A program made the position numbers and the translations under genes. 64,000 nt of DNA, taken from the NCBI GenBank assembly GCA_945882415.1, contig CAMCWC010000011.1:1-64000 (forward strand). Reading direction: 5' to 3'. The notes below the pieces were generated by a model. It did no database searches. It worked only from the letters and a program-made list of their open reading frames with translations, and was not told where the DNA came from. Each line of letters starts with the position of its first letter. The first letter of the stretch is position 1. This document shows, piece after piece, positions 55,095 to 60,168 of the stretch. This DNA comes from Chthonomonas calidirosea. GTDB lineage: Bacteria > Armatimonadota > Fimbriimonadia > Fimbriimonadales > Fimbriimonadaceae.

Positions 55095-55748
55095 TCAATC
55101 CTGACCGTTAGGCTTGCCAGCCCAATCCAAAAACCCTTGCCCTGCCAGAATCTTTGGCGTGCACTTCTCGACTCGGCTTTCCCTTGTTTTGCTCTGCTTC
55201 GCTCCAGAAATGTGAATCGCGTGGCTGCGCTGTCGACCTGGCGTTAGTGCAAAGAACGCGCTCGCCAAAGCAGGGTCCGCTTCCATCGCCACGATGAGTT
55301 CTTCGGGCAATTCAATATCCGCGGAATCACGCTTTGGGACCACCGCTCCAGATCGCTCAAGCTCCACCGCCTGACGCAGAATCTCTCGTATGGCGGCAGC
55401 ATTCTGAGCGACCTGCTCCACGCTCCGAAATCGCCCGACCATGCTCTCGTGCGAGTTCGGCCCGGCGGATTCCAAAATTCCCGCCGGGTCGCTAATCAAG
55501 ACTCCCTTAAACATATTGAGTCCGCAGTAGTCCTTGAACGCAGCAATGATCAACACGTTCTTCCCGTTCAGCGTGTAGCAAGGAACCTTCCACTTCACTT
55601 CCTCGGTGAGGCCACTCTCGAGAACAAGAGCACGAAGCGCCTGAAACACGTCGTACCAACTGTGTACTTTGCATCTCGGAGTATTTCCAAGCGGACATCG
55701 CATGCAGCCGATCGCAAGATACTTATCAACCTCCGGGTTCATGGTCAT
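55095..55748 (-). CDS. DUF1801/YdeI-like protein
   Basis: About 217 residues: a DUF1801 fold (VKWKVPCYTLNGKNVLII, KDYCGLNMFKGVLI) followed by a YdeI/OmpD-associated C-terminal part with VPKRDSADIELPEEL and FFALTPGRQRSHAIHISGAK. These proteins are small stress- or antimicrobial-response factors in other bacteria; no precise function. A TTG/ATG/ATG cluster leaves the start (55748 or 55742) uncertain. Confidence 0.85.
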   Translation of the reverse strand: MTMNPEVDKYLAIGCMRCPLGNTPRCKVHSWYDVFQALRALVLESGLTEEVKWKVPCYTLNGKNVLIIAAFKDYCGLNMFKGVLISDPAGILESAGPNSHESMVGRFRSVEQVAQNAAAIREILRQAVELERSGAVVPKRDSADIELPEELIVAMEADPALASAFFALTPGRQRSHAIHISGAKQSKTRESRVEKCTPKILAGQGFLDWAGKPNGQD

Positions 55749-55833
55749 CAATCTCCGTCGCTATTCTCCCATGATTGTCCATCCCAGCCTAGTTCTGAGC
55801 AAAGATTTCGAGCGAGAATCCATTTTCATTTCT

Positions 55834-55849
55834 ACATTTCTAGAAATGT
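55834..55849. promoter_or_regulatory. ArsR operator (perfect 16-bp palindrome)
   Basis: ACATTTCTAGAAATGT is exactly self-complementary and lies 16 bp before the GTG start of arsR, at the promoter of the arsR-arsM-arsC operon. ArsR-family repressors bind short AT-rich inverted repeats of this kind and leave when As(III) binds. Confidence 0.75.
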
Positions 55850-55865
55850 GTGCTACCATTGTCGT

Positions 55866-56234
55866 GTGGACAAGCATGTGACCGCAGAAATGTTCAAAGC
55901 GCTCGGAGACCCGACGCGTCTGCGAATTTTTGAATACCTTCGCTGCTCCTGCGGCCCTCTAGCGGTTGCAGACGCCGGAGAGATTCGACAAGTTTCTGGC
56001 CCAACCGTTGGCGAAGTGTGTTGTTGCATCACCGGTGCTGACAAGATCACGTCAACCATCAGCTTCCATCTAAAGGAGTTGCGAAACGCCGGCCTCATCG
56101 TGATGGAGCGCCGCGGCAAACACATGGTTTGCAGCGTGAACGAGCAGGCCATTGCCGCGATTGCGGACTACTTTAAGTCCACCCAGATCCAAGACTGTTG
56201 CGAGGACACATCAAATGTCAAACGAAACCCTTAA
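55866..56234 (+). CDS. arsR: ArsR family metalloregulator
   Basis: 122 residues with the ArsR winged-helix core (FKALGDPTRLRIFEYL, SFHLKELRNAGLI). Cysteines cluster at C27/C29 (R-C-S-C-G), C52-C54 (V-C-C-C) and C111/C112 near the end, a candidate As(III) site different from the classical CVC on helix 3. Start is GTG at 55866. Overlaps arsM by 20 bp. Autorepresses the arsenic operon at the palindrome. Confidence 0.87.
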   Translation: MDKHVTAEMFKALGDPTRLRIFEYLRCSCGPLAVADAGEIRQVSGPTVGEVCCCITGADKITSTISFHLKELRNAGLIVMERRGKHMVCSVNEQAIAAIADYFKSTQIQDCCEDTSNVKRNP

Positions 56235-57108
56235 TCAGCGAGAAGACGTGCGCGAAATCGTTCGCCAAAGATACGGAGAAGCAGCGCTTCGGGTGCTCAG
56301 TGGCCAAGCCACCGCCTGTTGCGGAGCCGAAGATGACTGTTGCTCATCGGACATCCCCGCCGGTGCTAGCCAATGTTGCGAAAGCAAAGGCGAGCCTGAT
56401 TGCTGTTCCACTGGCAAAGCAAACGATCCCATCAGCGGTGATCTCTATGCCGATACCGAAGCGGCATTGATCCCCGAAGCCGCGATCCTTGCTTCGCTGG
56501 GATGCGGCAACCCTACCGCCCTTGCCGAACTACGCGAAGGGGAAATCGTGCTGGATCTTGGGAGTGGCGGCGGAATCGATGTCCTGCTCTCGGCAAAGCG
56601 GGTCGGCACCACCGGCTTTGCTTACGGTCTAGATATGACGGACGAAATGCTGGAGCTCGCCGAAAGAAACCGAATCGAGGCCCAAGCCGACAACGTGCAG
56701 TTTCTGAAAGGCCACATCGAATCCATCCCGCTCGAGGATAACTCGGTTGATGTTGTCATCAGCAACTGCGTCATCAATCTCAGCGCGGACAAAGACCAAG
56801 TCCTCCGAGAAGCTTTCCGGGTTCTAAAACCGGGCGGCCGGTTCGCGGTTTCGGATGTCGTCGTAGAAGGTGAACTACCTTCGGATGTTCGTAAGGATAT
56901 GGAGCTTTACGTCGGCTGCGTTGCCGGAGCGCTTGAGATTCGTGAGTACATCCAGAAGCTAGAATCCGCTGGATTCCAGTCGGCCAGCGTAACCCCGACC
57001 CGCTATTACAACTTCAGCACGATCAAAGGAAGCCAAGAAGTCGGTGCGCATCCAGAGCTTGACAACAAAGTCATGGGCGCATTCATCCGGGCGGTGAAGC
57101 CGGAATGA
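56215..57108 (+). CDS. arsM: Arsenite S-adenosylmethionine methyltransferase ArsM
   Basis: Methylates As(III) to volatile or less toxic forms. 297 residues: N-terminal segment with C-C clusters ([19 protein letters not shown]) that may bind metalloid, the SAM fold with [16 protein letters not shown], the conserved C in [10 protein letters not shown], and VGCVAGAL near the C-terminus. The four Cys positions typical of ArsM are represented. Coupled by a 4-nt overlap (ATGA) to arsC. Confidence 0.92.
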
Positions 57109-57506
57109 CCGTCCTTTTCGTCTGCGTCCACAACGCCGGCCGATCGCAAATGGCGGAAGCATTCGTGAACCACTTCGCGCGGGAACGCGGCGCAAAGGTC
57201 TTCGCCGAATCCGCCGGTACAGTTGGCGGAAAAGCGCTGAACCCAATGGCGATCGAGGCCATGGCAGAACTCGGCATTTCGATGGATGGTCATGCGCCAA
57301 AACTGCTCACCCAAGAGATGGCAGATCGAGCCAATAAGGTCATCTCCATGGGTTGCGGTGTCGACGTTGACGCTTGCCCTGCCAAGTTTCTTCTTGCCGA
57401 AGATTGGGAACTTGATGACCCTGCCGGCCAAGGCCTCGAGTCCGTCCGCGTGATCCGCGATCAAATCAGAGCGCGAGTCCAGAAACTCCTTGCGGACAAT
57501 CCGTGA
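57105..57506 (+). CDS. arsC: Thioredoxin-coupled arsenate reductase ArsC
   Basis: Reduces As(V) to As(III) through a cysteine triad C7, C84 and C91, in LFVCVHNAGRSQ (P-loop of the low-molecular-weight phosphatase fold) and SMGCGVDVDACPAKF, as in the thioredoxin-dependent family. The product feeds ArsM rather than an efflux pump here, because no arsB or acr3 gene is present in the window. Confidence 0.93.
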   Translation: MTVLFVCVHNAGRSQMAEAFVNHFARERGAKVFAESAGTVGGKALNPMAIEAMAELGISMDGHAPKLLTQEMADRANKVISMGCGVDVDACPAKFLLAEDWELDDPAGQGLESVRVIRDQIRARVQKLLADNP

Positions 57507-58584: not shown

Positions 58585-58763
58585 ATTTGTCTCTCCGCAC
58601 TTTATATCACGCCTGCCGATCGGCGTGATGTTTTGCAGTTGAAGTGTCTAAAATCGGGTTGTCAACGACCGCGTGCGAGCATGAAACCGGAATAAAGGCG
58701 AAAACTTGAGAATTTTTAAATTAAAGGAACTTTTATACGTGAATTATCGTTCGTATATCTGAT
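58585..58763. other. Promoter region upstream of the riboswitch
   Basis: About 180 bp between the divergent DinB gene and the riboswitch. An AT-rich stretch (about 58700-58740, with TTGAGA and TTTTATAC) could hold the promoter of the terC transcript, but the spacing of the boxes (about 21 bp) is not ideal. No gene is seen. Confidence 0.45.
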
Positions 58764-58855
58764 TCCGAAGGGGAGTAGCACCTGCCTTGGCAGGCACAAT
58801 GTTCGTCATCACGCTCAAACGAGCCGGGCACTGTGGCAATTGCAAGACCTTCATC
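58764..58855 (+). promoter_or_regulatory. yybP-ykoY manganese riboswitch
   Basis: The leader contains the family's fixed elements in order: GAAGGGGAGTAGC (58767-58779), then CGTCATCACGCTC, a short loop, GAGCCGGGC, CTGTGGCAA and TTGCAAGACCTTC (about 58840-58852). GAAGG at the 5' end pairs with CCTTC at the 3' end (P1). This class binds Mn2+ and controls MntP, TerC/Alx and related genes, which fits the terC gene downstream. It sits directly before the terminator that it competes with. Confidence 0.92.
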
Positions 58856-58876
58856 GCTCCGCGATGAAGGTCGTTT
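58846..58876 (+). terminator. Riboswitch expression-platform terminator
   Basis: GACCTTCATCGC (58846-58857) pairs perfectly with GCGATGAAGGTC (58861-58872) around a 3-nt loop, followed by GTTTT. The 5' arm shares CCTTC with the P1 stem of the aptamer, so ligand-stabilised P1 would block this hairpin and turn the genes on. The T-run is short, so it may be partial. Confidence 0.8.
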
Positions 58877-58909
58877 TCATGTCGGAGCGAAGGGATTACG
58901 AGAAAAATC

Positions 58910-59170
58910 ATGAGATGCCCATCCTGCAACGAACCCCTCGTCATTTCCGAAAAGCACCGTGTCGAAATTGACTATTGCCCACGATGTCGCGGAGTTTGGC
59001 TGGACCGAGGTGAGCTGGACAAAATCATTGAACGGTGCAAGCACGTGAGCCTCGACCACGATGACGACGACTTCGAGTACGCCCGTCCGCGAGAGACCAC
59101 ATCCTACGCCGAGCGCTCCCAGCATAAGAAGAAACGAGGCGGATTCCTCGAGGACCTCTTCGACTTCTGA
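58910..59170 (+). CDS. Small zf-TFIIB zinc-ribbon protein
   Basis: 86 residues with MRCPSCNEPLVI and IDYCPRCRGVWLDRGELDKI, the two CxxC knuckles of the zf-TFIIB family, followed by a D/K-rich tail with D-D-D-D. These small zinc-ribbon proteins have no known function. The stop overlaps the terC start by one base (TGATG), so translation is coupled, and both genes are under the Mn2+ riboswitch. Confidence 0.85.
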   Translation: MRCPSCNEPLVISEKHRVEIDYCPRCRGVWLDRGELDKIIERCKHVSLDHDDDDFEYARPRETTSYAERSQHKKKRGGFLEDLFDF

Positions 59171-60168
59171 TGACCGAAATCGCGAACATTTCTGTCGGAA
59201 TCTGGGGAGCGTTTCTGGCTTTTGTTGCCCTCATGCTGGCCCTTGACCTAGGCGTTTTCCACCGGACCCCGCACAGAGTAGAGCCCAAAGAAGCGCTCAT
59301 CTGGAGCGGGATCTGGATTGCACTCGCCCTGGTCTTCAATGCCGGCCTCTTCGCCTTTTGGGACCAAATTCAGCCGAATAGCGCCTATACAAATAGCGAA
59401 GCAGGCATTGCCTTCCTGAGTGGTTACCTCATCGAAAAGGCCCTGAGCGTGGACAACATCTTTGTCTTCCTCATGGTGTTCTCCTACTTTAAGGTTCGCG
59501 AGGAGTACCAACACCGAGTGCTCTTTTGGGGCATCATTGGCGCGCTCCTTTTTAGGGCAATATTCATTGCTCTCGGCGCGGTTGTGCTAGAGAAATTCTT
59601 CTGGACGATGATCCTCTTTGGAGTTTTTCTCATCGCCACCGGCATCAAAATGGCTCTGCCAAAGTCGAAGGAGATGGACCTAGATCGCAACATTGTTGTT
59701 CGACTAGTCCGAAAGCTAATGCCGGTTACGCCTGACTTTCATGGCGAAAAGTTCTTTGTAAAGATTGATGGAAAGCGCTGGGCAACGCCGCTGTTTGTCG
59801 TGCTGCTCGTGATTGAGTTCACCGACGTAATCTTCGCGGTAGATTCTATCCCCGCCATCTTTGCGATTACGGAGAATCCCTTTATCGTCTTCACCTCAAA
59901 CGTGTTCGCGATCCTTGGCCTGCGCTCGCTGTTCTTTGCCCTCGCCGGGCTCACGCAAATGTTCAAGTATCTCAGCGTGGGGCTCGCCGCAATCCTGGTG
60001 TTCGTCGGCGGAAAAATGCTCTACGGTTACGTCGAAAAGGCGGTCATCGTCGATTGGCCAAAGTTCCCTCCGATGCTCTCGCTTGCGATCATCGCCGGAA
60101 TCCTCGTCATTTCGGTTCTTGCCTCGGTCCGCGATTCAAAGTCGAACGCGGAAAAAGCTCAGCCCTAA
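59170..60168 (+). CDS. terC: TerC family membrane transporter (Alx/MeeY-like)
   Basis: 332-residue polytopic inner-membrane protein of the TerC family, with acidic metal-coordinating motifs in helices: IEKALSVDNIFVFLMVFSYF and IEFTDVIFAVDSIPAIFAIT. TerC/Alx proteins export Mn2+ or supply it to exported proteins. The upstream Mn2+ riboswitch supports a manganese role over tellurite resistance. Converges with the beta-CA-like gene by 4 bp. Confidence 0.93.
   Translation: MTEIANISVGIWGAFLAFVALMLALDLGVFHRTPHRVEPKEALIWSGIWIALALVFNAGLFAFWDQIQPNSAYTNSEAGIAFLSGYLIEKALSVDNIFVFLMVFSYFKVREEYQHRVLFWGIIGALLFRAIFIALGAVVLEKFFWTMILFGVFLIATGIKMALPKSKEMDLDRNIVVRLVRKLMPVTPDFHGEKFFVKIDGKRWATPLFVVLLVIEFTDVIFAVDSIPAIFAITENPFIVFTSNVFAILGLRSLFFALAGLTQMFKYLSVGLAAILVFVGGKMLYGYVEKAVIVDWPKFPPMLSLAIIAGILVISVLASVRDSKSNAEKAQP

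Follow-up and report, generated by a model that had tools for sequence, protein, structure and literature searches.

The window, by which we mean the whole stretch of 64,000 nucleotides that was analysed, carries a structured leader followed by two genes on the forward strand, encoding a small zinc-ribbon protein of the zf-TFIIB family and a metal-homeostasis membrane protein of the TerC/Alx family (Table 1). The first-pass annotation had described these as a two-gene unit coupled by one base, and the reading frames and their Pfam and NCBIfam matches bear this out. It had also recognized the fixed elements of the yybP-ykoY aptamer in the leader, and every sequence element that it named is present, with the order and spacing of GGGGAGTAGC, CGTCATCACGCTC and GCAAGACCTTC being those of the yybP-ykoY aptamer. 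In the predicted structure, helix P1.1 is followed by an L1 of GGGGAGUAG, a P2 hairpin (CCUGC/GCAGG), and helices P3.1 and P3.2 with an L3 of CGUCAUCACG, the L3 segment of the manganese site being given as CGUCANNACG; P4 is absent. A promoter scan matched no sigma-70-like promoter; a possible -10 element lies just upstream of P1, and TATAAT occurs at a similar site in several relatives' leaders.

Table 1. Features of the leader, the two genes that follow it and the neighbouring gene cluster in the window.
Feature	Position	Strand	Details
Probable arsenic cluster	55449-57506		ArsR-type regulator and the two ORFs below
ArsM-type methyltransferase	56152-57108		Overlapping
LMW-phosphatase/arsenate-reductase-like ORF	57105-57506
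Possible -10 element TATATC	58754-58759	+	Just 5' of P1; weak, position only
Predicted compact Mn2+ (yybP-ykoY-type) riboswitch aptamer	58764-58853	+	Sequence; covariance model R1, 88.1 bits, E 3e-19; 61 relatives with covariation
P1.1, GAAGG with CCTTC	58767-58771 with 58848-58852
GGGGAGTAGC	58770-58779		Read from the window sequence
CGTCATCACGCTC	58804-58816		Read from the window sequence
TTGCAAGACCTTC	3' end at 58852		Read from the window sequence
Intrinsic terminator with GUUUUC tail	58846-58878 (hairpin 58846-58872)	+	GACCTTCATCGC-TCC-GCGATGAAGGTC, then GTTTTC; 5' arm holds the whole P1 3' strand, 3' arm repeats GAAGG
zf-TFIIB (PF13453) zinc-ribbon protein, 86 aa	58910-59170	+	Pfam 69.5 bits, cut-off 22; acidic/basic linker, C-terminal FLEDLFDF motif
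Stop/start overlap, TGATG	59168-59172		One base shared, the A of TGA/ATG at 59170
TerC/Alx family metal-homeostasis membrane protein	59170-60168	+	TIGR03718 (R_switched_Alx) 404.1 bits, cut-off 246.4; PF03741

Homologues of the zinc-ribbon protein within the class yielded 20 elements, from which covariance model R1 was built. R1 detected 62 elements in 51 of the 113 genomes of Fimbriimonadia (Armatimonadota), and matches were present in 82 of the 291 genomes of this little-studied phylum. Element loci were found in Fimbriimonadaceae bacterium ACE_ARM8 (G088, CP075366) and Armatimonadetes bacterium SZAS-4 (G051, JAFDWT010000066), both of which belong to the window's own family, placing the window in Fimbriimonadaceae, phylum Armatimonadota. 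One match of 36 bits with a broken L1 (L124) is probably false, and another (L086) ends at a contig edge. For analysis of covariation, elements were realigned to an RNA model containing P3.1 and P3.2, which superseded an RNAalifold fold of a plain MAFFT alignment that had misplaced the L3 pairing and P2. Across the 61 realigned elements 93.2% of cells were paired, a value biased in that direction by an alignment fitted to the structure. Changes on both sides were seen in 16 of 22 pairs, and the same structure-fitted alignment held 211 double-change cells, compared to 53.8 in shuffles and far fewer in slid controls. Covariation supported helices P1, P2 and P3 with the internal loops L1 and L3. 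The core letters of these loops were invariant or nearly so, and the A of CGUCA and the L1 A were kept in 61 of 61 elements. Manganese-contacting and docking adenosines have been described (PMC6754395), and the manganese-coordinating adenosine core is conserved in the window as GGGGAGTAGC together with CGTCA. Because dozens of genomes repeat the arrangement, with helices that covary, the observation in the window is confirmed to lie far beyond chance.

The Rfam model for this class, RF00080, matched nothing in the window, there even at E<=10, and nothing in the whole genome. A covariance score below threshold had been proposed as grounds for discarding the riboswitch, and the score does literally fall below it (gathering cut-off, 45 bits). 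However, this outcome was rejected as a refutation after a control with known riboswitches, since the model also fails on E. coli mntP, which scored 41.6 bits in the same search library, and on E. coli alx, for which the control search reported no match. Matches above the cut-off occurred in 2 of 14 control genomes and in none of the 113 genomes of the class; two sub-threshold matches in the class (40.1 and 30.7 bits) both coincide with elements that R1 found independently. When R1 was applied to the mntP and alx loci of E. coli, its best matches fell exactly on the leaders, at weak scores of 12.8 and 12.4 bits (E 0.6-0.8). The RF00080 model of Rfam 15 has 177 positions and a consensus structure line without P1 around L1, and its gathering score is a curatorial threshold that we do not treat as a defining biological feature. 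The model is a poor detector, with mntP (L031:962-1058) below its cut-off and alx (L032) unlisted, and annotation pipelines will overlook many manganese riboswitches, a large set of which escapes the standard model for RNA annotation. The Rfam miss is also what would favor a plain attenuator or constitutive terminator hairpin with riboswitch-like motifs arising by chance, an explanation that we regard as barely credible in view of the covariation, the invariant core, the conserved gene context and the sub-threshold RF00080 matches that bridge the two models.

Solved manganese riboswitch structures are four-way junctions (PMC6754395), and the window element does not have this form. P3 and P1.2 are joined by a linker of 8 nt in 52 elements and of 6-11 nt in 61 of 61, leaving no room for P4, so that the Fimbriimonadia elements are, as judged from their sequences, a P4-less, three-way junction version. 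In a few elements from other classes of Armatimonadota, the length would seem to allow for P4. Without this helix the three-dimensional docking may differ from that in the solved structures. The elements are thus a shortened variant of a known riboswitch class, P4-less relative to the structures of PMC6754395 and invisible to Rfam, and do not constitute a new RNA class.

The first-pass annotation had further proposed that GAAGG pairs with a CCTTC that the downstream terminator reuses, allowing an on-switch logic to be read from the leader, and both the competition between P1 and the terminator hairpin (Table 1) and the ON logic are supported computationally. A hairpin with a U-rich tail overlapping the P1 3' strand was present in 50 of the 61 elements, whereas shuffling of the downstream DNA gave an expectation of 0.2; the U tract of the window copy is only GUUUUC, and those of the relatives are richer. 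In elements whose P1 carries GGAGG in place of GAAGG, the 3' arm of the terminator shows the matching change, with a single exception, and this covariation of three strands is as expected of mutually exclusive pairings. In folding without ligand, the minimum free energy structure in the window was the terminator fold, at -49.6 kcal/mol compared to -35.8 kcal/mol with P1 forced, and P1 formed in the fold of the 90-nt aptamer alone. In Lactococcus lactis, P1.1 is held by Mn2+ and the terminator is kept from forming, which turns expression on (PMC11087558). Since the folds and the terminator overlap match this published mechanism, the expected logic of the window switch would be OFF by default and ON with Mn2+, which we infer to be its ligand. 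In the absence of Mn2+, the downstream hairpin would take up the CCUUC of the P1 3' strand, and transcription would stop short of the genes. Mn2+ bound between L1 (GGGGAGUAG) and L3 (CGUCANNACG) would hold P1.1 and block the terminator, permitting a translationally coupled zf-TFIIB-terC mRNA. Taken from its sequence, the element is very likely a compact manganese (yybP-ykoY) riboswitch without P4 that acts as a transcriptional ON switch.

The genes found behind the 62 Fimbriimonadia elements agree with a role in manganese homeostasis, as does the location of the window element. Genes at the relatives' loci were identified by tblastn, longest-ORF calling having given spurious ORFs in high-GC DNA, and HtpX (PF01435), a protease for the quality control of membrane proteins, ATPases and exporters were assigned by Pfam. 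The most frequent arrangement was zf-TFIIB-terC (20 elements), followed by htpX without the zinc-ribbon gene (11, three of them then continuing with a P-type ATPase), terC without it (10) and htpX-zf-TFIIB-terC (9). The remaining elements precede a zinc-ribbon gene without detected terC (3, one then with a P-type ATPase), an OMF-ABC-HlyD exporter (3), a P-type ATPase alone (2), a universal stress protein (1), a carbonic anhydrase (1), or genes that were unidentified or cut off (2). TerC is thus encoded downstream of 39 of the 62 elements, and P-type cation ATPases occur at six loci. Other Armatimonadota classes contributed 34 more elements, 12 before TerC and 12 before HtpX, with one locus (L132) counted in both. 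The element, its homology and covariation, the overlapping terminator and the conserved gene sets were all established computationally.

An aptamer specific for a different divalent ion (Cd2+, Ni2+, Co2+ or Fe2+) would sit well with the ars-like cluster of ArsR-type, ArsM-type and arsenate-reductase-like ORFs that lies about 1.2-3.3 kb upstream, and the loss of P4 could change docking. We consider this very improbable, however, because the core bases of L1 and L3 are invariant and the regulated genes encode TerC, cation P-type ATPases and HtpX, none of them an arsenic function.

Several further observations concern the gene sets. Across the phylum, htpX is the first gene after about a third of the elements, and the unit htpX-zf-TFIIB-terC under the manganese riboswitch occurs in two Armatimonadota classes (L069, L070, L092, L101, L103, L104, L106, L107, L112 and L132). 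At several loci (L068, L078, L079, L091, L096, L097 and L081), terC is followed by a gene for a protein of about 290 aa that resembles universal stress proteins, and at L081 such a gene directly follows the riboswitch. An SbtA-like membrane protein, which we take to be bicarbonate transporter-like, follows zf-TFIIB-terC in the set of loci L082, L105, L119 and L117, and at L117 the gene immediately behind the element encodes a carbonic anhydrase, which hints at a link between manganese and bicarbonate.

The genome of the window contains a second manganese-riboswitch-like element, outside the window (G000:C1:305357-305447, minus strand; L118:4501-4591; 52.6 bits), which precedes genes for an outer-membrane efflux protein, an ABC transporter and a HlyD-type protein. 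No overlapping terminator was found at this element. Its P1 3' strand, GACCTTCCAA, is able to base-pair with TTGGAGGTC, a segment that contains a likely Shine-Dalgarno sequence, making translational control plausible. The same arrangement is found in another genome (G023, L120), and similar genes occur in a third (G045, L122).

The zinc-ribbon protein had been put forward as a candidate partner in manganese handling, and this suggestion was strengthened by comparison of the loci. Of the 50 TerC genes in the class, 39 lie downstream of the element and 34 next to zf-TFIIB; 29 show both features and six neither, and the one-base overlap recurs in at least 10 loci of the class (distance 3). The PF13453 match spans residues 2-42, and alignment A3 shows invariant C3, C6, C23 and C26, a WLDRGEL core, an acidic and basic linker, and a C-terminal FLGELFDF. 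This family is widespread, and its motif is therefore not specific to manganese loci. A solved structure of a relative is available (8yoz); our literature search found no paper on it, and no function for the relatives. At 78 zf-TFIIB loci from other phyla, terC lay within about 4 kb in six, well above chance, since an 8-kb stretch is an estimated 0.2% or so of a typical genome. The two genes stand directly side by side on the same strand in Bacteroidota (L168, L198), Pseudomonadota (L177) and KSB1 (L236), and no riboswitch was seen beside these pairs. Three loci of zf-TFIIB genes without TerC shared no common neighbor theme.

These data bear on whether the zinc-ribbon gene is a mere operon passenger with no role in manganese handling or export. 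The 72 of 78 loci outside Armatimonadota that lack TerC within about 4 kb, the ten elements that drive terC without zf-TFIIB, and a literature search that found no paper joining zf-TFIIB with TerC would all fit a passenger. Against this stand the adjacency to 34 of the 50 class TerC genes, with the identical overlap in at least 10, the retention of the gene as the middle member of htpX-zf-TFIIB-terC units in two classes, and the pairing with terC in three other phyla without a switch. We regard the passenger explanation as a substantial minority possibility, and a partnership of the zinc-ribbon protein with TerC in manganese handling as the somewhat favored reading.

HtpX, FtsH and translocon components co-purify with the TerC protein MeeF in Bacillus subtilis, where FtsH becomes essential when both TerC proteins are missing (PMC10550928). 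The co-purification was the only earlier hint of the HtpX link that we found; our searches retrieved no paper placing HtpX under a manganese riboswitch, and none joining Armatimonadetes with riboswitch and manganese. By analogy, the htpX-zf-terC operon would be the genetic counterpart of the B. subtilis MeeF-HtpX link. The conserved operons, together with this co-purification, support a manganese-induced membrane module for metalation and quality control, in which an excess of Mn2+ would open transcription of TerC and the zinc-ribbon protein, along with HtpX in many relatives, and TerC would then export Mn2+ and/or metalate exported proteins. We infer that the zinc-ribbon protein is an accessory or adaptor of this assembly, probably a cytosolic one that serves TerC, the translocon and HtpX in quality control. 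The fullest version of this proposal is speculative and on balance unlikely to hold in every part: that the P4-less, Rfam-unseen riboswitch of Armatimonadota induces HtpX, a zinc-ribbon adaptor and TerC as an envelope module for manganese stress, with the zinc-ribbon protein as a physical bridge between the TerC-dependent metalation step at the translocon and the proteolysis by HtpX of membrane proteins that are jammed or carry the wrong metal. The genetic link between TerC, the zinc-ribbon family and HtpX makes TerC metalation of exported proteins, and its partners, directly testable.

Comparison with known systems places the window element and its relatives beside the L. lactis yybP riboswitch (RF00080, transcriptional ON), with which they share the L1 GGGGAGUAG, an L3 of CGUCA...CG, P1.1/P1.2, P2, P3 and a GC(A/G)AGACC 3' strand, as well as a P1.1 3' strand common to the terminator and targets that include TerC/Alx proteins and P-type ATPases. 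Unlike that riboswitch, the Fimbriimonadia elements lack P4 and score far below the Rfam cut-off, and the genes behind them include htpX, zf-TFIIB and an OMF-ABC-HlyD exporter. The E. coli alx and mntP leaders are homologous to the element through R1, and Alx shares TIGR03718 with the window TerC, but these leaders are longer, with extra sequence, and have no zinc-ribbon or htpX partner. The small PF13453 (Zn_ribbon_TFIIB) proteins, as in 8yoz, resemble the window protein in two cysteine pairs, the WLDRGEL core and a C-terminal FLxELFDF; the window protein differs in being encoded under a predicted manganese switch and coupled to terC. MeeF and MeeY (YceF and YkoY) of B. subtilis also belong to the TerC family, and whereas the MeeF link to HtpX is proteomic, that in Armatimonadota is an operon with a zinc-ribbon gene between htpX and terC.
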